IMG/VR virus record: IMGVR_UViG_3300037264_001369
Span: 1-43,454 of that record
DNA: 43,454 bases
Source of the DNA: a virus
Direction: 5' to 3' (one strand)
The position numbers were made by a program, and so were the translations under genes. The notes below the pieces were generated by a model. It was not told where the DNA came from. It saw only the letters and a program-made list of their open reading frames with translations, and made no database searches. Numbering within the stretch: position 1 is the stretch's first letter; each line of letters opens with the position of its first letter. Below are positions 8,532-26,740 of this stretch, in pieces.

Positions 8532-8810
8532 TTAGCTTCCACTTAACTCCTTAATTAGAGACGCTTCAGTAAACGCCCTATATGCCTCGATTAGGTCTTT
8601 CTTTGTAAAATATTCACCCTCATTAGTATTGATAGCGTTGTAGGACACGAAGAGATGAGCTTTATCTGGCTTAATCTGGCGGAAGTCGGCTTCGACTCGT
8701 TTGATAAAAGCTATTTTTCTACGCAAAGTGTACATTCGTACCACCTTACCCTTTTTGTAGAACTTTATAGCGAAGTATAAGCCTAACTTCAGTGGTTGTT
8801 TTTGTCTCAT
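8532..8810 (-). CDS. Hypothetical basic protein, 92 aa
   Basis: First full-size gene of the leftward operon. Basic N-terminus (KQPLKLGLYFAIKFYKKGKVVRMYTLRRK), then FIKRVEADFRQIKPDK and a C-terminal helix. Its ATG overlaps the TGA of the 31-codon leader ORF (ATGA, 8807-8810), so it should be translationally coupled to it. No family recognised. Confidence 0.7.
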   Translation of the reverse strand: MRQKQPLKLGLYFAIKFYKKGKVVRMYTLRRKIAFIKRVEADFRQIKPDKAHLFVSYNAINTNEGEYFTKKDLIEAYRAFTEASLIKELSGS

Positions 8811-8902
8811 AAAACCTCTTCAAAAAGCTCCACGAAATTGGACCCCGTTAAGGAGATCGTGGAGCTATTAAAACTGGTTTTGTAAAGAAAAACGGAGTCC
8901 AT
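8807..8902 (-). CDS. Leaderless 31-aa leader ORF spanning a terminator-like hairpin
   Basis: ATG at 8902 lies 6 nt downstream of a TGC-TAGACT extended -10 box, so the transcript should begin at or next to the ATG. The ORF (MDSVFLYKTSFNSS..., ending FEEVL) runs through the hairpin at 8826-8866 with its U5 tract, and its TGA overlaps the ATG of the next gene. It is rich in Ser/Thr and has no recognised family. Either a small protein or a leader peptide whose translation controls termination. Confidence 0.55.
   Translation of the reverse strand: MDSVFLYKTSFNSSTISLTGSNFVELFEEVL
8822..8866 (-). terminator. Terminator-like hairpin inside the early leader (putative attenuator)
   Basis: Perfect 10-bp stem AGCTCCACGA/TCGTGGAGCT, 21-nt loop, followed on the minus strand by TTTTT. 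It sits between the early promoter and the first operon gene and is covered by the leader ORF, so termination would depend on translation or an antiterminator. Confidence 0.7.
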
Positions 8903-11746: not shown

Positions 11747-11809
11747 AGGTGATTTAGTTAGGGGTTGTGTAAGATGGGCAGGCTTGCACAGCTCCTAACT
11801 AGGTCGTCT
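11747..11809 (+). ncRNA. 23-bp stem-loop in the leader of the lysozyme-like gene
   Basis: Bases 11747-11769 pair with 11787-11809 continuously over 23 bp, with a 17-nt loop. All non-Watson-Crick positions (six) are G-T, i.e. G-U pairs in plus-strand RNA but C-A mismatches in minus-strand RNA, so the structure favours the plus transcript. An ATG (11774) lies in the loop; the likely gene start is 11822, 12 nt past the stem. Confidence 0.55.
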
Positions 11810-11821
11810 CGACTTAGATCT

Positions 11822-12406
11822 ATGAAAAGAAAACAACGGGCAGCTCGTTGGATTATTATCCTACTAGCACTAACCCTTCTTGTTTCAACTGCTCTTTCTC
11901 ATAACCAAAAAGAATCCCAATTAAAACAAATTAGACAATTAGAAGAACAACAGACAAGGGATTCCCAGCAGATAGAGAAAGAACACCAGGAGAAACTAAA
12001 GCTGGAACAAGAAAAAGAACAACTTAAAAAGCAATTAGAAACAAAGAAACAAAAAGAAACAATGTTAGCTCAAGTTAAACCAAGGTACTCAAATTCAGGT
12101 AACTGTGAAACTTACAGAAACCTAATAGCCCAATATTCCTGGAACGTCAATACTATGATCGCTATCTGTAATGCAGAAAGTGGCGGAGATCCTAACAAAG
12201 CAAACACAACCGACAATCACGGTGTTTGTATGGGTAGTTATGGATTGTTCCAGATTAGCTGTCATCAAGGAATTGTTCTCGACCCAACAGCTAATGTAGC
12301 TGCCGCTTGGGGTAAGTACACAGGTGCTCAAAATAACCCTAGAACTAATTACTGGGGGTATTGGCCTTGGAGTGTCTGTAAAAATGGCACACTCACTTGT
12401 AGTTAA
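11822..12406 (+). CDS. Membrane-anchored lysozyme/transglycosylase-like murein hydrolase, 194 aa
   Basis: Basic N-terminus and TM/signal-anchor (RWIIILLALTLLVSTAL, about 9-25), a coiled coil (about 30-82), then a lysozyme-like SLT domain: NVNTMIAICNAESGGDPNKAN (Glu of AESGG is the likely catalytic acid), MGSYGLFQISC and WGKYTGAQNNP...YWPWSVC; about five Cys could form disulfides. ATG 11822 is chosen as it begins the signal anchor; ATG 11774 in the hairpin loop would add 16 residues. Plus strand, opposite to holin and amidase. It could act at lysis or be virion-associated for entry. Confidence 0.8.
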   Translation: MKRKQRAARWIIILLALTLLVSTALSHNQKESQLKQIRQLEEQQTRDSQQIEKEHQEKLKLEQEKEQLKKQLETKKQKETMLAQVKPRYSNSGNCETYRNLIAQYSWNVNTMIAICNAESGGDPNKANTTDNHGVCMGSYGLFQISCHQGIVLDPTANVAAAWGKYTGAQNNPRTNYWGYWPWSVCKNGTLTCS

Positions 12407-12439: not shown

Positions 12440-12468
12440 CCTCTTTTAAAGAGGTATATAATTATAGT
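12440..12468 (+). promoter_or_regulatory. Promoter with operator-like palindrome for the forward cassette
   Basis: Palindrome CCTCTTT-T-AAAGAGG (12440-12454) abuts TATAAT (12457-12462). The predicted start, about 12469, is two bases before the long leader hairpin. -35 is poor, which suggests activator control. Confidence 0.5.
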
Positions 12469-12470
12469 TG

Positions 12471-12558
12471 TTTGAATCTTGAGAGCTATATAGGTTATGT
12501 GTAAAACAGCTCCGCTGTCTTAACTTGCAAGTTACCTATATAGTTTTGAGGATTCAAA
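12471..12558 (+). ncRNA. 88-nt 5'-terminal hairpin directly before the SD
   Basis: TTTGAATC (12471-12478) pairs with GATTCAAA (12551-12558), CTATATAGGT (12486-12495) with ACCTATATAG (12534-12543), and ACAGC/GCTGT (12506-12518) caps it; about 30 pairs with few mismatches, wobbles fitting the plus-strand RNA. The SD (AGGAGGAGG, 12559-12567) starts at the next base. A competing palindrome AACTTG-CAAGTT lies at 12522-12533. Confidence 0.6.
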
Positions 12559-12570
12559 AGGAGGAGGTCG

Positions 12571-12756
12571 ATGCCTGAAGAAGTCAAGCAAGTTCCGCCT
12601 ACTCCTAACGAGGTCTGGGTAGGCAACGGCGACTATCTCAAGATCGTGGAAGAGATGTTAATCGCTCTCGGAGAGGAGTATCAACTGGATGTCTGGTACA
12701 ACGGAACAAAGCTCGTTGGAAATGGAGTTACCACCAGCCCAAAAGAAACCAACTAG
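12571..12756 (+). CDS. Forward cassette gene 1, unknown, 61 aa
   Basis: ATG preceded by a very strong SD (AGGAGGAGG, spacing 3-4). Product MPEEVKQVPPTPNEVW..., with a central LKIVEEMLIALGEEYQLDVW and C-terminal VGNGVTTSPKETN. No family recognised. Base composition is visibly more GC-rich than the flanking virion genes, suggesting separate acquisition (moron-like). Overlaps gene 2 by 35 nt. Confidence 0.7.
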   Translation: MPEEVKQVPPTPNEVWVGNGDYLKIVEEMLIALGEEYQLDVWYNGTKLVGNGVTTSPKETN

Positions 12757-12910
12757 GCGACTGGTGCTGCATCATTGCGTCAGGCGTGATCTGTATAACA
12801 CTATTGAACTGGTGGTTACAGACGCAGACTTGGAAGTTCTGGAGCCGGGGTTGCAGCGAGTTCTTCGCAACGGTAACAACCCCGACTTCTACTTTGAAGT
12901 CAGACAATGA
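12722..12910 (+). CDS. Forward cassette gene 2, unknown, 62 aa
   Basis: ATG 12722 (MELPPAQKKPTRRL) is preferred to the in-frame ATG 12689 because it is preceded by TTGGA and avoids a longer overlap. Basic N-terminus then alternating strands (NTIELVVTDADLEVLEPGL...DFYFEVRQ). The stop overlaps gene 3 (ATGA). No family recognised. Confidence 0.65.
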   Translation: MELPPAQKKPTRRLVLHHCVRRDLYNTIELVVTDADLEVLEPGLQRVLRNGNNPDFYFEVRQ

Positions 12911-13110
12911 TTGATGTTGCACTGCTCACCGAAGGCGGCTTCATCTTCTGCGACATACCAGCAGACGTTCTCATCCGTCTCCGAGAACGGGTACTGCAAG
13001 AAGGCGGTGACATTGTCCTTAAAGTAACTGTCTGTAAAGGAGACGGCACACAAGAGAGAGCAGTCTGGATGCGACCAAATATGATCTTGGTCAAACTTGG
13101 GGAACACTGA
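12907..13110 (+). CDS. Forward cassette gene 3, unknown, 67 aa
   Basis: Coupled to gene 2 by a 4-nt overlap. Small alpha/beta protein: LLTEGGFIFCDIPADVL, IRLRERVLQEGGDIVLKVTVCKGDG, MRPNMILVKLGEH. Genes 2 and 3 both alternate strand-helix-strand with a short length, but I see no close mutual similarity. Candidate host-takeover or defence-countering proteins by context only. Confidence 0.7.
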   Translation: MIDVALLTEGGFIFCDIPADVLIRLRERVLQEGGDIVLKVTVCKGDGTQERAVWMRPNMILVKLGEH

Positions 13111-13235
13111 GTCAAGGTTGTGCTAAAAGGAACCTCCTACCGCCAGCACAGCACGCCCAGCACTCAGTTTCTTAGGAGCAGGGACAAATAGGTGAACCTT
13201 TGAGGTTTGCTGATGGACTAACCTGCTCCGCCACC
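13111..13235. other. GC-rich structured non-coding segment between convergent genes
   Basis: No ORF. GGAGCAGG (13175-13182) pairs with CCTGCTCC (13222-13229), enclosing AACC/GGTT (13195-13207). CCGC/GCGG flank the minus-gene stop (13229-13243). Lacks U-tracts, so it is not a classic intrinsic terminator; could be a 3' UTR or small RNA. Confidence 0.45.
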
Positions 13236-16200
13236 TTAGCGGAAACGTAGTCTAAACTTAGACTCTTTCTCAGCTTCTTTTTCTTCTTCAGTTTTTGGGA
13301 TATAGTTTTTGGTAAAGGTTTTTAATAGACCTGCATCAATTAACCTTTGTTCAAAGGCTTTATTAGCTTCTCTGTCTCTCTTCTCTTTTTCAATTTCCAT
13401 ATCAAACTCTCGACTCTTTAAGGGACTAATCGCTTGATTCCAAGGATTATCTGCACCTAAAACATTTAGAAGACGTGATAGTGGTGTTGTATTTAAAAGC
13501 TCCCATCTTGCAGGATTAACACGGAACTTAACCACCTCAACGTCTTTATCTTTTCCGTTTTTAAATGTGTAAGATTCATCTTTTAGTTCTAACCATTTAA
13601 GTAGGGCTTCTCCACCAGGTTTTCCTTCTAAAGCTTTCTTAGCTTGCTTACCTGCATCATACTGAAACTCGTCATAGGATTTACCGTAGAAAAAGTCTCT
13701 TTTGGAGTATTGTTTTAGTGGAAACTGAAGCGCAGGATTCATAAAACTTAGTATTTCTCGCTCTATAAATCTCTCTGGACTTTCACGCCAGAGTCGGTTT
13801 AAGTCTTCTACAGGGAGTAAATTGATACCATAACCATAATTGACATCTTTACCAGAACCACCAAGTTTTACAAATAAACCTTCTTTAATGTAGTCAGGCA
13901 GTAAATCTATCTCACCTTGCTCGCCTTTAGGTAGACTCTCAATTACTTTTCCAAGTGCCGAGTATTTACCAGGTTGTCTAACCATTTGCTCTAGCTGAAG
14001 TGGGATATTCTTTCTGGTCCAAGTGTAGAAAGGAAAGATTCTTTTCATTACTCCTTTTTCAAAGTCAGTTAGTTCAGAGTAATCAAAAAGGAATTTCTTA
14101 ACCGACTGGGCTGCTTCTTCAGGGCTTAAACCACTTCTTATTTTACTAATGAAGTGAGCTATTTTGGCGTTGTCTTCTATAGTAGAACCAATAACTGTAG
14201 GAATATTTAAGCCTGTCTGAGTTATATTCTTGGCCTTTCCTAAATTGGACTTAGCACCAACAGTTCTTTCTAACAGTTCTTGGATATCAGCCTTGTAAAA
14301 GCCTGTATTCACAACTCCTAGATCTTCTATTAAAGTCTTTATCTCCTTATAGCTATAACCAGCAATCTTTCCCTTCAATTTACCTGTCTGGATAAGAGCA
14401 GCATCGGTGTAATCTTTAGGATTTGTGACATCGCCAAGCCAGTTATTGAAAACATTACCTGTGAAATTTCTAATGTGGAAAGCAGGGTAGTAACTCGTTA
14501 GCCCAATTTTCTGAACATTTAATATTTTGTCGTAAATTTGCAGAAATCTGTTAGTTTCTTTAGGAGTCGTAAATTTGTTAAGAGCATTACCTATTTCCTT
14601 AGGAACATAATAAACAGGAACATTCCTGGTGATAGCTGCTGCCATCTTTCCACCAGTAGTTTCAACAGGAAAGAATCCTAAACTACCTTTAGGTCTAAAC
14701 TCAACGTGCCCTTCTGGAATATCAATATCTTTACCAGCTTTGGTTCCGTATCTTTTTAAAGTTTCTTTTAAAAAGTCATTATTTGTCTTAGTGATTCTCA
14801 AGTCAGCTTCGACCTGAGCTATTGCCCACATTGGATCTTTTCGCTCTCCTGTAAACTCTTCCGCAGTACGTCTCTTTAAAGAAGCAGGGTTTTTTTCTTT
14901 AAAAGGGTTGCTTATTTTAAATAGATTCTTTTTAGTCTTTTCTGGGACACCTCTAAATATGTAGTCTTGAAGAAGTTTCTCTTCAGGTAATCCCATATCA
15001 AGAGCTAACTCTCGAATAAGCGGTCTATCAAAACGTAGGTATTCCTTATATAGAGTTTTAGTACCTTCATCTAAGGCGGCATTATCAACTGATTTAACAA
15101 ATTCTTCTGGTAAATCTTGACCAATCTCAGTAAGTATTGGAGTTTGGGGTTTGTAGTTGTTTATATCAACTGGTAAACCTTTGTCAGCTAAGGTAAAGAA
15201 CTCATCTAATTGAGCTTGTGATGGGTTTTTGCCATAAGCCTTTTTAAACATCTGAGTTGTATCTTCAACAGTTCGTCTGGCTATGTTTCGAGGGGAGCGT
15301 ATTATATTCTGATAGGCTTCATGGAACTCTCCAAATCCCGCTGCCTTTAGCCTACTACCAGCATTTATAGGCGAGGTAAGTGCAGCAAAAGCTTTTTTAG
15401 TTGCAGGAGATAGAGTAGTTCCCGTAAAAGGGACTGGGACATTGGATACCACACTGCCGATTTTTCTCTGAAATTGAGGTGCGATAGTCTTTCCACCGAA
15501 TTTGATACCACCGAAATCAACATATTTATTAGGATTTTTAGAAACAATTTCAGCAGTAGCCTTTTTAGCCAGCTCATTTACTTGTCTACCAGTGAGTTCT
15601 GTACCCGCTTCAGCAGATTGTTTAAGGATTCTTTTTGATTCTGAAATCAGTAACTTTTGCCCAGCTCCTTTGTTCAAAGTTACCTCAGTTCCTTTTTTTA
15701 AGCCTTTCTTTAAAGCTTGTTTGGTTCCAGATTTTAAACCTTGGGTGAGAGTAACTTTAGCTGCGGTTCCTGTTCCAAGAGTTAGCAAAGTAGTAGGGTC
15801 ACTGGCTATATCTCCTGGTAAGGATAAAAGTCCTCTTGTGGTCACCTTTCCACCAAGGGTTAAGGGGCCTAGAGATACTTTTGGAGTTGTGAACAAGGTT
15901 CCTTCTCCAACACCCAGCTCTTTAAACACATCTTCAGTTGAAGTTTTGGTTTTACCTGTTATACCTGAGACAGCTCCTCTACTAAAACCTTTAATAAAGC
16001 TATTTTGTAAACCAAAGGGATTCTTTTTAACTTCTTTAACACCTTCGATAAGCCCAGAGCTTTGGGCCATAGTACCTCTAGCAAGTAAATCGAAAGCCCG
16101 TTCTAAGAATCCGATGTGGGGTTTCTTTTTTAAATCTTCAGGGGTGGGGACACCGTGTTGTTTGGCGAGAGTAAGTCTTTCTTGCTTCTCCTCTTCTTCT

Positions 16201-16250
16201 CTAACTTCCTTTGATTTAGAAAATCGAAGTTTCGCTTTTTTAATAGCCAT
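13236..16250 (-). CDS. Large internal virion / polyvalent-type protein, 1004 aa
   Basis: The largest gene. Lys/Arg-rich termini, an N-terminal Gly/Thr/Leu-rich hydrophobic zone (about 120-180), and a central region with IGLTSYYPAFHIRNFTGNVFNNWLGDV (about 577-603). That segment resembles the 'large polyvalent protein-associated' and internal virion/DNA-ejection proteins of short-tailed phages. No protease or RNA polymerase catalytic motif seen. Last gene of the structural block. Likely ejected with DNA; a short SD (GAGG) precedes the ATG. Confidence 0.65.
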   Translation of the reverse strand: MAIKKAKLRFSKSKEVREEEEKQERLTLAKQHGVPTPEDLKKKPHIGFLERAFDLLARGTMAQSSGLIEGVKEVKKNPFGLQNSFIKGFSRGAVSGITGKTKTSTEDVFKELGVGEGTLFTTPKVSLGPLTLGGKVTTRGLLSLPGDIASDPTTLLTLGTGTAAKVTLTQGLKSGTKQALKKGLKKGTEVTLNKGAGQKLLISESKRILKQSAEAGTELTGRQVNELAKKATAEIVSKNPNKYVDFGGIKFGGKTIAPQFQRKIGSVVSNVPVPFTGTTLSPATKKAFAALTSPINAGSRLKAAGFGEFHEAYQNIIRSPRNIARRTVEDTTQMFKKAYGKNPSQAQLDEFFTLADKGLPVDINNYKPQTPILTEIGQDLPEEFVKSVDNAALDEGTKTLYKEYLRFDRPLIRELALDMGLPEEKLLQDYIFRGVPEKTKKNLFKISNPFKEKNPASLKRRTAEEFTGERKDPMWAIAQVEADLRITKTNNDFLKETLKRYGTKAGKDIDIPEGHVEFRPKGSLGFFPVETTGGKMAAAITRNVPVYYVPKEIGNALNKFTTPKETNRFLQIYDKILNVQKIGLTSYYPAFHIRNFTGNVFNNWLGDVTNPKDYTDAALIQTGKLKGKIAGYSYKEIKTLIEDLGVVNTGFYKADIQELLERTVGAKSNLGKAKNITQTGLNIPTVIGSTIEDNAKIAHFISKIRSGLSPEEAAQSVKKFLFDYSELTDFEKGVMKRIFPFYTWTRKNIPLQLEQMVRQPGKYSALGKVIESLPKGEQGEIDLLPDYIKEGLFVKLGGSGKDVNYGYGINLLPVEDLNRLWRESPERFIEREILSFMNPALQFPLKQYSKRDFFYGKSYDEFQYDAGKQAKKALEGKPGGEALLKWLELKDESYTFKNGKDKDVEVVKFRVNPARWELLNTTPLSRLLNVLGADNPWNQAISPLKSREFDMEIEKEKRDREANKAFEQRLIDAGLLKTFTKNYIPKTEEEKEAEKESKFRLRFR

Positions 16251-17565: not shown

Positions 17566-18113
17566 AATCTAATTACTACAAACCTTAAATAAAGATAATA
17601 TGTGTGAGTATCTGCCGACTGATTACGAAAATTGAAACCAATACGTTGTTGATGTAGGCCGAGAGTTTTCCCTACATTCGGAGAGGAAAGACCGCTAACA
17701 CCGTCACTACCTTCTTCATTAGGTGCAAGGGCACTACCAACTACTTGAGGTAACACAGTAACAATTATGTTCTTCTGACTAGAAGTTAAAGAAGCTCCTG
17801 TGGGCCAAAGGTAGTTGGGGTCAGCATCTGTGCCAACATAAATGTTCATTTCAGTTAAGACTTTAATTTTTTCGCCAGGGACAGCGGAAACTAAGGCATT
17901 GAAAAAGTTACTGGTTACTGTTGCTGAAGTAATAGAAAAAGGGGCTACATCAGTATCTTCAAAGTTAGATATTTTACTAAAGCCCAACTCGTTACTTCTA
18001 ACGTGCTGTTGCTCAACCCGTGTAAGGTAAGGAGAGCCGACTCTCTCAACCGAGATTTGTTTTAGCGGTATTCGGGGTATTTCACGCTTGTCTGCTAGTT
18101 TTACTTTAACCAT
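17562..18113 (-). CDS. Structural protein, 183 aa
   Basis: Beta-rich, with a jelly-roll-like appearance (ITSATVTSNFFNALVSAVPG, KIKVLTEMNIYVGTDADPNYLWP, HTYYLYLRFVVIRL). Starts in the stop codon of the tail gene (TAATG). Likely a minor tail or capsid-vertex component by context; no family recognised. Confidence 0.6.
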   Translation of the reverse strand: MVKVKLADKREIPRIPLKQISVERVGSPYLTRVEQQHVRSNELGFSKISNFEDTDVAPFSITSATVTSNFFNALVSAVPGEKIKVLTEMNIYVGTDADPNYLWPTGASLTSSQKNIIVTVLPQVVGSALAPNEEGSDGVSGLSSPNVGKTLGLHQQRIGFNFRNQSADTHTYYLYLRFVVIRL

Positions 18114-19960
18114 TACACCACCTCTTCATCTGATCGGTCTTCATAAGAAATTGTAACAGCGTAAACTTCTAAATCATTAGTGCTAGAGGTTACTAATCTA
18201 ACTCTGACCTCTAATTCTTTAAATCTTTTGTTTAAGTTGAACCTAGTATCAGTAGTTCCAGCGGTTGAGTTTGAAGCGGCGGCAGTCCAATTGGTTGCTC
18301 GATCTATTTTATAATCAATATAAACCTCTTGGTTCGAGATTAGTGTGGAGTGGTCGACTCGAATAACATCAGCTACTTTTTGATGGTAAGGTTTACCATC
18401 ATCAATCATTAAACTCTCCCACGAAGCACTCGTAAAAGGCTGTGAACTAGGACCTACCGTATCCCAACCATAAACAGTGTCATCCCGCCAACCAATGTGT
18501 AAAGTTTGTCCTTGCCCTAGTACAGCTCCTATTTTAAGGTTATTTGACCCAGAGGTTAGTGTGCCAGTTGAAATCGGATAATCTTGAGTAAGAGACTCAG
18601 AATAATCTTTGGTCGGTTGACCATAAGTATAAACCGAAGTTTCAAAAATATCATCTGCATCAGTATTAACGGGAGCACCGATAAGTAAGTTGCCTTGCCA
18701 CATTCCCATTGCGCCAGGAGCGACTTCAACATAGGTCTGCTTTGTCATACGGGGGAGTTGGTCAACGGCTTGAACACCATCAGTGTAAACGTAAAGTTTA
18801 CCTTGATTACCAGCAACAAAGAATAGTCGATTCTGGTCGGTGAACACAGAATTTACCGCGCCTTCGGGGATTTCGACTGCGTAAGTATAAGCAGGACCCT
18901 CTCCGTCCCAGAAAACAAGTAACCCTTTATCCGTGTCGTTGATTGATTGACTAGAAGAAGCTCCTTTCCAACACCCAGCTACAACATAATCTCCTAATTT
19001 AGCTAAACATCTAACCTTGTATCCCAAAGGTATCTCAATGGCATTTGAGTTTATCGGATAGTCATAACCATTCCAGGAACCTACATAGTCAGAGTTGCCA
19101 AAAACAAGAAACCGTTTAAAATCTATCATCGGTTGGTAGTCAGTGTTAGAAATTAGAATTCCAAAGTATTCGTGGAAGTCAGCGGTTTCTAAATCAGAAG
19201 CAGTGGTTGTTACAACTGTACCATCAGCGACTGTGCTGGTTAGATGGAAATGATAGTCGTTATTCCGAAAAACTCTAAGAGGAGTACTAAAAGTAAACTT
19301 TTGGTCCCCACTAGCAGCTAAAGAAGCATTAGCAATAGTAACTGTACCGATAGAAACATTTAAACTATCGTGAAGAGTTAGAGTCCAATTTCCAGTACCT
19401 CTTGTACCTAAATTTACTTGGATAGACTTTATTGGATCCCTAGTTGGAGTAAAAGTTTGGCGATGAGTTGCTCCTTCATTTACTCCTGTAGTAAGAGTGT
19501 AAGTATTTCCAGAAGTATCAAGCGACTGATCGAGATTGTAAACGTCATCTTCAAAGAAAGTAGTACTGTTAGAAGGGGAGTTGGTGATAGGACCAAACCT
19601 ACCTATGGTTGTCGTTAAAGAATAGTAAAGATAATCATCGTCATCCCGATAAGCCAAACCTTGTCCTGCACCAGTAGAGTTATTAACTACTTTAGTAACT
19701 GTTCCAGAAGCGTCTTTATAAATATCATTTCCAGCGTCTATCGCATAAATGTTGCCATCTTTAGCAGTAGCAAACCATTTAATAAGATCGGTAACTGTAG
19801 TACTGGAGATCTTAGCTGTCTTAGGAAGAATCTTGAAAGAAGTTGGTTCAGAGTCTATATCAATAGAACGAGAGTTTTGGAAAGAGCCTGGTGCTCCTTC
19901 TTTACGACTGACGCTAATGCCCCCTTGAAAGTGGTCGAATATACGAATCTTTTTACTCAT
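18113..19960 (-). CDS. Tail protein, beta-propeller-like, 615 aa
   Basis: Starts KKIRIFDHFQGGISVSRKEGAPGSF, then repeated short blades of the form D/N-G-N-I/L-Y... (FATAKDGNIYAIDAGNDIYKD, CLAKLGDYVVAGCWKG, RLFFVAGNQGKLYVYTDG), with an inserted beta-sandwich (about 140-260) and a C-terminal beta domain. Consistent with the tail-tube/hub beta-propeller proteins of podoviruses (T7 gp12-like position after the adaptor gene). Assignment is by fold impression and order. Confidence 0.6.
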   Translation of the reverse strand: MSKKIRIFDHFQGGISVSRKEGAPGSFQNSRSIDIDSEPTSFKILPKTAKISSTTVTDLIKWFATAKDGNIYAIDAGNDIYKDASGTVTKVVNNSTGAGQGLAYRDDDDYLYYSLTTTIGRFGPITNSPSNSTTFFEDDVYNLDQSLDTSGNTYTLTTGVNEGATHRQTFTPTRDPIKSIQVNLGTRGTGNWTLTLHDSLNVSIGTVTIANASLAASGDQKFTFSTPLRVFRNNDYHFHLTSTVADGTVVTTTASDLETADFHEYFGILISNTDYQPMIDFKRFLVFGNSDYVGSWNGYDYPINSNAIEIPLGYKVRCLAKLGDYVVAGCWKGASSSQSINDTDKGLLVFWDGEGPAYTYAVEIPEGAVNSVFTDQNRLFFVAGNQGKLYVYTDGVQAVDQLPRMTKQTYVEVAPGAMGMWQGNLLIGAPVNTDADDIFETSVYTYGQPTKDYSESLTQDYPISTGTLTSGSNNLKIGAVLGQGQTLHIGWRDDTVYGWDTVGPSSQPFTSASWESLMIDDGKPYHQKVADVIRVDHSTLISNQEVYIDYKIDRATNWTAAASNSTAGTTDTRFNLNKRFKELEVRVRLVTSSTNDLEVYAVTISYEDRSDEEVV

Positions 19961-19967
19961 TACCTAG

Positions 19968-19976
19968 ATTATATCA
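19968..19976 (-). promoter_or_regulatory. Leaderless promoter (tail gene 19960)
   Basis: TGA-TATAAT, a perfect extended -10, 7 nt before ATG. Confidence 0.7.
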
Positions 19977-20870
19977 GGTAATCGTACCAGGAGGATAATT
20001 GTTGCCTCTAAACTGAAACTTAGGCTTACCCCTAACAATCGCTCCCCGTGTCTTACTGCCGTAACGCTTTTTAGCTTTCATCATTCCTTGCTCAAACATT
20101 CCTAAGAATTTGATGGAGCGGTTGGTATCCTGCTTTATATCGTAATAGTGAGACAGAGCAAAGTAAATTGGTAGTATGTGTAGGTCTTCTGGAAGATTGA
20201 AGGCTTCGTTAATTGTATAGGCAAGACCTGCACCAGCAGTGCCTTCAAAGACATTCTCTAAAACTATTACAGTTGCAGAAGTGTAGGTCACTATTCGATA
20301 CCAAACCCCATCAACTGTTCCTTTAAAATATCTCCCCACCATCGCTGGGGTGAAAGTTGTACCCGATCCTGTCACTGTAGCACTACCATTTGCTAAAGTG
20401 ACGGTGCCTGTAGTGTAAGCATCGTTAGTTAAATCCCGATCTCCTGCTTCATAAACTACTGTGATTGTATTACTAGCAGAAGCAGGTTTTGGAAAGATCC
20501 CAATCTCTGTACCATTAATACCGAAGCCTGGTCTGACAAAGAAGTAAGTTGGAATATCGCTAGAGCTGGTAAGGTCAGCGTTGAGAGCGTCCCAAGTCTC
20601 TTGATCTGGGATTTCTTCTAATGGGTAAGGAATCGAACCAACTGTTACAGTGATGGATTTAATAAAAAGAGTATTGGAGGGCATTTGATAATATTGCTGG
20701 TTAGCAACAGTTAAAGCAGTCTGAGTCTTCTCCGAGATAACTCTGCCAAGATCAGCTAAAACAGCGTGGTAGCCAAGATTAGCATAGCGTTTGAGCGTAG
20801 TTAAACTTCCGCTAGAGGTATCTGCGGTCATTTCTTGTAGCATTGTTTGTGTCTCGTCCCAAGTAATCAT
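19974..20870 (-). CDS. Head-tail adaptor-type protein, 298 aa
   Basis: N-terminal helices (TWDETQTMLQEMTAD...LKRYANLGYHAVLADLGRVI), a middle with FVRPGFGINGTEIGIFPKPAS, an inserted beta sandwich (TGTVTLANGSATVTGSG..., about 150-205) and a C-terminal helical half (LPEDLHILPIYFALSHYYDIKQD, MFEQGMMKAKKRYG). The order 'RYANLGYHAVL...LYFALSHYY...AKKRYG' is typical of podoviral adaptor proteins (T7 gp11/DUF6682-like). It would join portal to tail. Confidence 0.65.
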   Translation of the reverse strand: MITWDETQTMLQEMTADTSSGSLTTLKRYANLGYHAVLADLGRVISEKTQTALTVANQQYYQMPSNTLFIKSITVTVGSIPYPLEEIPDQETWDALNADLTSSSDIPTYFFVRPGFGINGTEIGIFPKPASASNTITVVYEAGDRDLTNDAYTTGTVTLANGSATVTGSGTTFTPAMVGRYFKGTVDGVWYRIVTYTSATVIVLENVFEGTAGAGLAYTINEAFNLPEDLHILPIYFALSHYYDIKQDTNRSIKFLGMFEQGMMKAKKRYGSKTRGAIVRGKPKFQFRGNNYPPGTIT

Positions 20871-20887: not shown

Positions 20888-22087
20888 TTAAGCTGCAATA
20901 TAAGTGAAGTACCCATTAATAGAGTCGCTAGTTCCCCAAGACACAGGTACTGAACTTGTCACTTGAGAGTCTTGTAAATAAGTACCTGAAGCTGTTTGCA
21001 TTACAAATGATGCTGAAGTTGCAGACCCTCTATACATAGTTCCTACATAATTAGCTACTCCTGAATCAAGTACGTTTATATGACCTATTATTGGGTTTCC
21101 AGTAGAGGCATAAATGTCAGCTATATTTACAGGAGCAGTTATTCCCGCTCCAGTACTAACAGCTGCACCAGAACCAAAAACCCAGTGGTAGGTAACATAA
21201 ACCTGTCTACCTTGCATTGAAAATCTACCTGTGTTAGTTCCTGCACCAACAGTTAAATTTACATAAGTAGGAGTGAAGTTGAAGTATTGAGGAAACCCAA
21301 TTGGACTAGAGCCGTGTGAGTAGTAATTTAGTGAGATAGCAGCGTTGACTAAAGTGTAGTCAGAGCCGCCTGTTACTGTTAAAAGTGTGTCCGCAACTGT
21401 CACAATGTAAAAGTATTTTACTGTAGTTTGGGTAAGTTTAATTTTGTCCCCGACTGCATACTTTGAGGCTGCACCGCTTGGTACAGTTATTGTAGTCGCT
21501 GAGGCATAAGTCCAAGATTCGTTAGCTAGTTGCCAGCCGTCCCAGCCACTAGGACCACCATCTTTAATTAAAAGAGAATCAACTGTTACCCCAGCGGCTA
21601 CTGTAGTTTCTTTTATGGTATCTGTTTGTAACCACTCTCCCACAGAAATTCCAAAGAAGGCAGAATCAAAAGTATAAGTACCCCCACCTGTTTCTAAAGT
21701 CACAGAACTTGTGCCTACTCCAGTATCACTGGAGGTTAGAAATGCTTCTCTATCAGCACTAAAATAGAGAGGACTACCATTAAGATCCAACTCAGTTCCG
21801 ACTACTGCGCTATTTAAAGTAGCAGAGTTAATAGTTGGAGAAGTTAGAGTTTTATTAGTTAAAGTCTGAGTAGCGGTCTTACCGACTGATTTATCAGTAC
21901 CTGTTACTTCACTTAATTTATAATCGTGAGAGGCGTTGTTAGTATCGCTAGTTTTACCGACTTTAGTAGCGATAGCTTCTATTTCATCGTTTTCGCTACT
22001 ATGTAAGGCAGAATGGGATTGATTATTAGTTTTATCAGTCGCAGCAGGATTAGTTAAAGTAGGAATATCAGTTGGAAATGTAGCCAT
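20888..22087 (-). CDS. Tail fibre / receptor-binding protein, 399 aa
   Basis: ATG 22087 (MATFPTDIPTLTNPAATDKTN) matches the usual fibre N-terminus (T-x-N-P-x-x-x-D, then HSALHSSENDEIEAIATKVG, about 25-44). A Thr/Asn repeat follows (TNKTLTSPTINSATLNSAVVG), then a beta-rich shaft and a C-terminal beta-sandwich. The 16 upstream codons belong to the HNH frame region. SD GGAGGGAG lies inside the HNH 3' end. A host-recognition fibre. Confidence 0.75.
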   Translation of the reverse strand: MATFPTDIPTLTNPAATDKTNNQSHSALHSSENDEIEAIATKVGKTSDTNNASHDYKLSEVTGTDKSVGKTATQTLTNKTLTSPTINSATLNSAVVGTELDLNGSPLYFSADREAFLTSSDTGVGTSSVTLETGGGTYTFDSAFFGISVGEWLQTDTIKETTVAAGVTVDSLLIKDGGPSGWDGWQLANESWTYASATTITVPSGAASKYAVGDKIKLTQTTVKYFYIVTVADTLLTVTGGSDYTLVNAAISLNYYSHGSSPIGFPQYFNFTPTYVNLTVGAGTNTGRFSMQGRQVYVTYHWVFGSGAAVSTGAGITAPVNIADIYASTGNPIIGHINVLDSGVANYVGTMYRGSATSASFVMQTASGTYLQDSQVTSSVPVSWGTSDSINGYFTYIAA

Positions 22088-22625
22088 AAGATACTGCTCT
22101 CCCTCCATAAGTCTCAGTTTGTTTATGGCAGTCAAAACACAAAGTTCTACCGTTATCTAACTCAAACCTTAGTTCTGGATATAGTGAAAATGGTTTAATA
22201 TGGTCAGAGTGAAGTAAAATAGTTTTTCCTAAACCTTTTTTATTTCTAACACCACAAATCTGACAAGTATAATTGTCCCTTCTTTTAACAGTTGCTGCCC
22301 ACCGTTTATACTTAGGAGATTTCCTTGCCTTCTCATTTTTTGAAGTTACACCGCCCTTCCAATTATGGTTTGCTTCTCCAGTTCTAAAACCAATAAGCGA
22401 TACCCAGTAGCACTGAACAGAACAATAAGTTTTTCCACTAACACCTAAAGTTGTTTCAAACTCTGAATTACAACTTAGACATTTCCTATTATCTCGGTTA
22501 TTGTTCCAAGACTTCATTCCTGTAGGAATACCTTTTTTTGGAGAAGGTACTCCTGTTTTAGTTGCTATCATTTTGGCTTTCGTAGACTCAGACATAGGTA
22601 TGCCTTTATTCCAAGATGTTCTCAT
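22068..22625 (-). CDS. NUMOD3-HNH homing endonuclease, 185 aa
   Basis: N-terminal NUMOD3-like motifs (WNKGIPMSESTKAKMIATKTG), a Cys4 knuckle (CLSCNSEF...YCSVQC), NHNWKGGVTS, then HNH core CQICGVRNKKGLGKTILLHSDHIKPF...LDNGRTLCFDCHKQTE. The last 20 nt overlap the fibre start at 22087 and contain its SD, so the gene sits seamlessly upstream. Own leaderless promoter. Closely related in layout to 32041-32766. Confidence 0.85.
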   Translation of the reverse strand: MRTSWNKGIPMSESTKAKMIATKTGVPSPKKGIPTGMKSWNNNRDNRKCLSCNSEFETTLGVSGKTYCSVQCYWVSLIGFRTGEANHNWKGGVTSKNEKARKSPKYKRWAATVKRRDNYTCQICGVRNKKGLGKTILLHSDHIKPFSLYPELRFELDNGRTLCFDCHKQTETYGGRAVSYGYISN

Positions 22626-22641: not shown

Positions 22642-22872
22642 CTAAGTATCAGTGAAATCAGCAGTGTTCTTTGAAGCCTGTGAGAAGTCCGTAGTCAGTT
22701 TATTTCCTAAAGAGGAACTTCCAGCACCTGACCCATCATAATTAATTGTAGCATCATCATAGGCGATGGTAGCATCATCATAAGCTGGCGTTGAGTCTTC
22801 AAAGCTAGAATTTAAGTCAAAGTCAGTTGTGTTTTTAGTAACTATTGTGAAATCAGTAGTATTCTTGCTCAT
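22642..22872 (-). CDS. Repeat-containing small structural protein, 76 aa
   Basis: Built of short repeats: KNTTDF twice at the N-terminus and KNTADF near the C-terminus, and YDDAT(I) three times in the centre. No Cys. Such repeats resemble small fibre-associated or decoration peptides of metagenomic phages. Located between fibre genes. Confidence 0.6.
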   Translation of the reverse strand: MSKNTTDFTIVTKNTTDFDLNSSFEDSTPAYDDATIAYDDATINYDGSGAGSSSLGNKLTTDFSQASKNTADFTDT

Positions 22873-25486: not shown

Positions 25487-26740
25487 TTATTTATATTGTA
25501 CATCGAACCAGCAGTCAGCACTTCCGATTGTCTTAGTTGGTCCAGTTGATGAATTACATAAAGTTATTCCAGTTGTAAAAGCCCTTCCATAAACTCCAAA
25601 ATCAAAAGTAAAATTGGATGAAGCTGGAACTATAAAAATTATCACTGGAACGGCTGTATCAGCTGGAAGTGAAGCAGTATTATGGACCTGAATAAATTGT
25701 GCTGAAGTTTTTGAATTATATCCTGAAAATCCGAAAAGAGTTCCTCCTGACGCTTTAGCAACACGATTTGTCTCATAAGCGACTGAGGTGGAGTTTGTAT
25801 AAGAGTTACCTACATCTATGTCAACCCAAGCAGCTCCTCGTGAATTAAATCTAATTGGCTCGGCTTCTCCTGAGCTTAAATCTCCTAAAGAATCATCAAC
25901 TTGTCCTAAGACAAGAAGACCTGTGGGAGTACCGCCAAGACTATCTCCAGCATTATTGACAACTAAACCTTTTTCTGTACCAGCGGAATCTCTGACCTGG
26001 ACATAAACATTTCTATTGCCAGACATTCGAGCCGCACCAGCATCGCCCTCGTTTATATTATCAGGAGATGAATCATCAAATTCAAACCCTGCCATCATTA
26101 CTTTAGTCGTAGCGGGGGTAAAAGCTAGATCATCTGTAACAATTGCGTCATCTAATAATTGAAGTGATGTTGTTTGTGTTTGTTGTTCAGCTAAAGTAGC
26201 AAAAGTAGCCGAAGTCACCGCTACTGTCCCATCTACGGTCAAAGAACCACCATTATCATCAATAGATAAAACTCCTGTAGAATCCGTTGCAATGGTGACT
26301 CTTAAAGCAGTCGCTTCTGTACCAGAACCCACGACAGAAAGTTGAGCGTTGTCTATAGTAATTGAATTGCCGCTATCATTAATTCCTACTTCATCCCAGG
26401 TTCCAGATTGAGTAACGGCAATAGTATCAGTATGTTTAACGTAAAGTTCGCCAAAGTTATTACCGCGTGCTGCTACATTGTCACCATCGGTTGTGGTAAG
26501 TGAACCTGCTCTCGCGTCCTCTCTAATAAGGTTTAGGGCTGTAGCAACAGGATTAGCTGGGGCAGCTACATCTTCAGTATATTCTGTACCAGAAGAACCA
26601 CCAGCAGTAATAACCGCTGAAACCAGCAAACGGTTAGTTGCTGGATCGACTGCAACTAATTCAGTGGAAGTTAAATCAGAAGAAGACACACCAATAAGGG
26701 TCGCTATACGATTTTCGTCTCTTTTTGCTTGAGAAGCCAT
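25487..26740 (-). CDS. Fibre-like structural protein, 417 aa
   Basis: N-terminus [21 protein letters not shown] with [21 protein letters not shown], then repeated short beta motifs ([36 protein letters not shown]) and a C-terminal beta-sandwich (about 330-417). Low complexity in Thr/Val/Gly/Asp and no Cys except near the C-terminus. Probably a capsid or tail fibre; exact place in the virion unknown. Confidence 0.6.

Follow-up and report, generated by a model that had tools for sequence, protein, structure and literature searches.

An orphan three-gene cassette behind a leader hairpin: a candidate accessory operon in a relative of TM7 phage DolZOral124

Phage morons and accessory operons of small orphan proteins, anti-CRISPR loci among them, combine small open reading frames (ORFs), foreign base composition and residence in a variable slot. 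Large leader hairpins next to a Shine-Dalgarno (SD) sequence are in turn familiar from the phage lambda N leader, where the hairpin is an RNase III site, and from the ompA-type hairpins that stabilise mRNA 5' ends. The locus described here lies in a 43,454-base IMG/VR virus record, the whole of which was analysed and is hereafter called the window, and brings such features together in a plus-strand cassette of three small genes (Table 1). We interpret it, with a probability of roughly 60%, as an accessory ("moron") operon that a relative of TM7 phage DolZOral124 acquired horizontally and that occupies a variable slot of its genome.

Table 1. Coordinates of the cassette, its control elements and its flanking genes in the window.
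Feature	Position	Strand	Description
Lysozyme/transglycosylase-like neighbour	11765..12406	+	SLT_3 1.5e-4 (below curated cut-off), phrog_3310 1.2e-4
Palindrome	12440..12454	.	CCTCTTT-T-AAAGAGG (7+1+7, near-perfect); just 5' of the -10 box
-10 box	12457..12462	+	TATAAT (perfect), from sequence; predicted transcription start ~12468-12470
Leader hairpin, 88 nt	12471..12558	+	From folding and inverted-repeat search; predicted mRNA 5' end
Shine-Dalgarno	12559..12567	+	AGGAGGAGG, from sequence; strong; precedes gene 1 ATG
Gene 1	12571..12756	+	61 aa, acidic, pI 4.2, orphan
Gene 2	12722..12910	+	62 aa (73 aa with start 12689), predicted beta-beta-alpha-beta fold, orphan
Gene 3	12907..13110	+	67 aa, orphan; start overlaps the gene 2 stop as ATGA; model (helix + beta-sheet) of low confidence
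3' tail	13111..13235	+	8-bp GGAGCAGG/CCTGCTCC stem
Virion/internal protein gene, 1004 aa (probable)	13236..16250	-	Right-hand border of the slot; family present at 25 IMG/VR loci

Relatives of the window's capsid protein, portal and terminase were identified in TM7 phage DolZOral124_53_65 and in MW202566 (Manatee Spring). One related capsid gene resides in a genome of 0.9 Mb, and most of the listed members of that phylum have 0.5-1.1 Mb. Together, these relationships render a Patescibacteria-like host likely. Related phages stand at some distance (at most 73% for the MCP), and the closest of them are fragments that do not span the slot. Chaperonin genes also occur in related phages: MW202566 has an annotated groEL, the TM7 phage a Cpn60 gene, and a GroEL-like ORF was found in phage G016 (9139-10683). 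The 71-kb contig JAFTFC010000001.1, labelled Prevotella, carries two capsid matches ~40 kb apart whose match statistics are identical, as if the assembly contained a phage genome copied in tandem.

A preliminary description of this DNA had proposed three plus-strand genes in the cassette, and the corresponding ORFs were borne out. Together they cover 100% of positions 12571-13110, and of 5000 first-order Markov sequences none attained even 99% coverage; the codon score under the phage codon model was higher in the own frame of each gene than in all five other frames. The start of gene 2 overlaps gene 1 and that of gene 3 lies in the ATGA overlap with the gene 2 stop, a layout that would suit translational coupling. 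For gene 2 an ATG at 12689 is a possible alternative to the one at 12722, since GAGAGGAG is located ~10 nt upstream of the former. Considered as possible paralogues, the three proteins aligned with one another no better than shuffled sequences.

The cassette had further been described as more GC-rich than its surroundings, which holds: its GC content of 0.49-0.50 compares with 0.40 and 0.38 in the neighbours, both native in composition, and places it among the top 640-bp windows, equalled only at 29.0 kb. The composition unlike the remaining phage that marks morons is evident in GC3, for which the cassette genes are the top three of 59 (0.56, 0.52, and 0.49; mean of the remainder 0.30, maximum 0.46). 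As for its placement inside the minus-strand late region, the plus-strand orientation stood, but a plus-strand lysozyme-like gene lies directly upstream, and the cassette thus forms the latter part of an island of plus-strand genes, the lysozyme-like gene being its first half. This upstream gene, with an N-terminal hydrophobic stretch and native composition, falls outside the cassette.

Among the 50 related records of one search, only G003 (46 kb) held a homologue of the 1004-aa gene. In G003 this homologue is a virion-like gene of 816 aa, and the slot between it and the lysis genes is occupied by four plus-strand genes unrelated to the cassette, of which two match PHROGs with no assigned function (phrog_4652 and phrog_15946); judged from this one pair, G003 being the only relative read in detail, the slot is therefore variable. 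Neither the related loci nor the 25 loci with the neighbouring virion family yielded a convincing homologue of the cassette, whose absence from related phages at this locus, another mark of morons, thus refers to distant relatives and, for the slot itself, to G003. Being fixed as core in all relatives with native composition, the situation that would have spoken against a moron, was examined and did not apply. No convincing target-site duplications flank the cassette, the sole long-spaced direct repeat being a 10-nt AT-rich match. Elsewhere in the window, 32041-32766 matches HNH endonuclease families and hits the same stretches as 22068-22625 in several related loci, both genes sitting between structural genes; from the family match and these shared matches, both are probably HNH endonucleases.

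In homologue searches the three proteins matched no family of Pfam, PHROGs, NCBIfam or PADLOC, in line with the preliminary description; matches to virion and lysis families, likewise looked for, were absent. Searches against PDB sequences, viral_contigs and phage records returned no relatives of the cassette proteins, and protein 3 had none in plasmids and genome_contigs, in 50 related records or among 380 genomes from the phylum to which G050 belongs, one of small genomes, with the qualification that the pattern-based collection scans detect close relatives and may let distant homologues escape. A single match of protein 2 in the 380 phylum genomes (E 0.005, inside a 478-aa frame) was taken as chance.

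The structural search suggested for these proteins delivered models of genes 2 and 3, but all fold matches were non-significant and no significant fold relative was found for either. The single-sequence model of gene 2 is fairly confident (pLDDT 82.5, beta-beta-alpha-beta), and that of gene 3 is of low confidence (pLDDT 62.5), with weak matches mostly to PAS domains. For gene 2, every Foldseek E-value was at least 0.001 and every Z below 5, the weak matches being PII-like proteins, ATfaRel2 (Z 4.3, rmsd 2.4 over 51, a weak alignment), p56, the Ung inhibitor of a Bacillus phage (Z 3.9, rmsd 4.0 over 45, likewise weak), and Dmd; Foldseek E-values against p56 and T4 Dmd were 2.8-3.3, not significant. 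ATfaRel2, p56 and T4 Dmd are all small binders of a host enzyme or of a toxin, p56 being a DNA-mimicking dimer, and the gene 2 model has a like beta-beta-alpha-beta order. However, the E-x-x-Y motif carried by p56 (PMC10303552) is missing from the gene 2 sequence, and the modelled likeness to small host-enzyme binders is to be taken as a lead only.

Upstream of the genes, the cassette had been credited with its own promoter plus palindrome. The TATAAT and the palindrome are indeed present, but no good -35 hexamer accompanies the former and the site is absent from the promoter-scan list. The palindrome is a possible operator; at up to three mismatches it has 8 matches in the window on both strands versus 3.0 expected, an excess that is weak evidence of a regulon. 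The 88-nt hairpin, reported as ending one base before a near-perfect SD, does abut AGGAGGAGG. Folding of the 134-nt stretch around it gave z -4.18, with none of 200 shuffles equally stable. It is among five inverted repeats in the window with arms of at least 16 nt within 120 nt, and ranks 6th in absolute stability among 90-nt windows, although none of the 25 most stable has a lower GC content. Another large inverted repeat, at 8800-8892 (36-nt arms), has on the minus strand one arm that holds an SD-like motif and the ATG of gene 8532-8810, and is a possible SD-sequestering leader.

Pairing probabilities predicted for the cassette SD are equal with or without the hairpin, and a role of the latter as an SD switch is therefore unlikely. 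A predicted pairing of the SD with codons near the start of gene 1 weighs against the acquired-operon reading. A loose pattern of the inner arms of the hairpin retrieved 10 IMG/VR stretches, which differ around the pattern and encode no relatives of the window's proteins, and they were rejected as instances of the same hairpin. At the opposite end, the claim of a structured 125-nt 3' tail was not upheld, its stability (folded as 13108-13300) being at shuffle level, with z -0.06. The terminator scan revealed no terminator downstream of gene 3 and ARAGORN gave no tRNA within the window. A 3' tail folding back onto the SD has been reported for icaR (PMC3868564); here ACCTCCT at 13132 matches, but 11.8% of shuffles reach the duplex energy and this arrangement was rejected.

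Collectively, these observations accord with the moron form proposed for the cassette, given that its composition is foreign, that it has a -10 box and a leader to itself, that no homologues were retrieved and that other genes occupy the G003 slot. Acquisition as such rests on composition and absence, because no donor was found, and one rival reading is a native early-type operon of this phage lineage whose genes evolve too fast for homologue detection, with no recent import. Indeed, early genes of the window phage use SDs and several have GC3 values of 0.42-0.46, above those of late genes, and the G003 slot likewise has plus-strand genes. The cassette GC3 (0.523) nevertheless exceeds that of every other 180-codon stretch of the window (at most 0.472), and the G003 slot genes are AT-rich as is native (GC 0.26-0.36) and unrelated to the three of the cassette; on balance, we deem native origin unlikely, if worth keeping in mind.

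The RNA itself could alternatively be the functional product, either as a structured non-coding RNA or together with one protein instead of three. Folding of the whole 829-nt stretch (z -3.39) and of the coding sequences plus tail (z -2.9 to -3.3) would fit such an RNA, but the latter values are equalled or passed in 4 of 32 other genome windows, Rfam gave no match at gathering score and chance-level matches only at relaxed E-value, and both the ORF tiling and the own-frame codon scores speak for proteins, which leaves this explanation with very little probability. Hardly more probable is a real operon in which the hairpin works at the DNA level, as an operator or a palindromic site, or acts in transcripts of the minus strand instead of forming the operon's leader, an idea favoured by the length of the inverted repeat and by the second palindrome in the promoter. 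Of the eight positions at which the hairpin arms differ, five are of transition type; read as plus-strand RNA each of these forms a G.U pair, and read as minus-strand RNA none does (p = 1/32, judged by sign). Moreover, the plus-strand RNA folds at -36.7 kcal/mol versus -25.9 for the minus-strand RNA, which is thus 10.8 kcal/mol less stable. The strand bias in G.U pairs is suggestive of selection on the plus-strand RNA and of a leader-RNA role. Together, these data indicate that the cassette is real, orphan and foreign-looking, with a real leader hairpin, and ordinary in kind.

The type of leader sets the cassette apart from many starts in its phage group. When the window was scanned together with 14 relatives, 84 of 544 starts had a TATAAT-like box whose end lies 5-8 nt from the ATG, a rate of 0.154 per start versus 0.006 at internal ATGs. 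Exactly 6 nt separate box and ATG in 50 of the 84, a TG extension is present in 49, and an SD-like motif accompanies only 3 of the box-bearing starts. Examples among the minus-strand late genes of the window, with boxes that end 6-7 nt from the ATG, are 18113-19960, 19974-20870, 22068-22625, 22642-22872, and 25487-26740. MW202566 and TM7 phage DolZOral124 have one such box each, about chance level. By the criterion of PMC3160421, boxes so close to the ATG predict that leaderless mRNAs are widespread in this group. The cassette is of the opposite type, SD-led and with a leader of ~100 nt.

For the acquired operon that we favour, transcription from the TATAAT would start just upstream of the hairpin, at the position predicted in Table 1, which would therefore make the hairpin the extreme 5' end of the mRNA. 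Protection of this end, RNase III processing and insulation remain the candidate roles: the hairpin would shield the mRNA from decay, act as an RNase III entry site or insulate the SD. Ribosomes would then enter at gene 1 and be carried on to the other two genes by translational coupling, to produce three small soluble proteins that probably bind host proteins. Host takeover or counter-defence, as proposed in the preliminary description, would be a plausible function of such products. A broader proposal, that three new protein families constitute a counter-defence or host-takeover operon whose hairpin-led SD leader, amid leaderless genes, sets the timing or ribosome state of translation, strikes us as decidedly doubtful. 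The defences of Patescibacteria-like hosts are poorly known, and should the cassette products prove to disable functions of the host, phages of this kind would thereby furnish early examples of such tools.

As it stands, the cassette is a typical orphan accessory operon, and the sharper lead to emerge is that late genes throughout this phage group are predicted to be expressed from leaderless mRNAs. With anti-CRISPR-type loci it has in common, beyond small ORFs, foreign composition and a variable slot, a -10 box of its own and a palindrome close to the -35 position; unlike them, it shows no recognisable HTH gene and no Acr or Aca family match in Pfam, PHROG, NCBIfam or PADLOC, none of which is a dedicated Acr collection, and Acr families yet to be described may escape them. 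In its leader, the cassette resembles the lambda N and ompA-type systems, with which it shares a large hairpin beside the SD.
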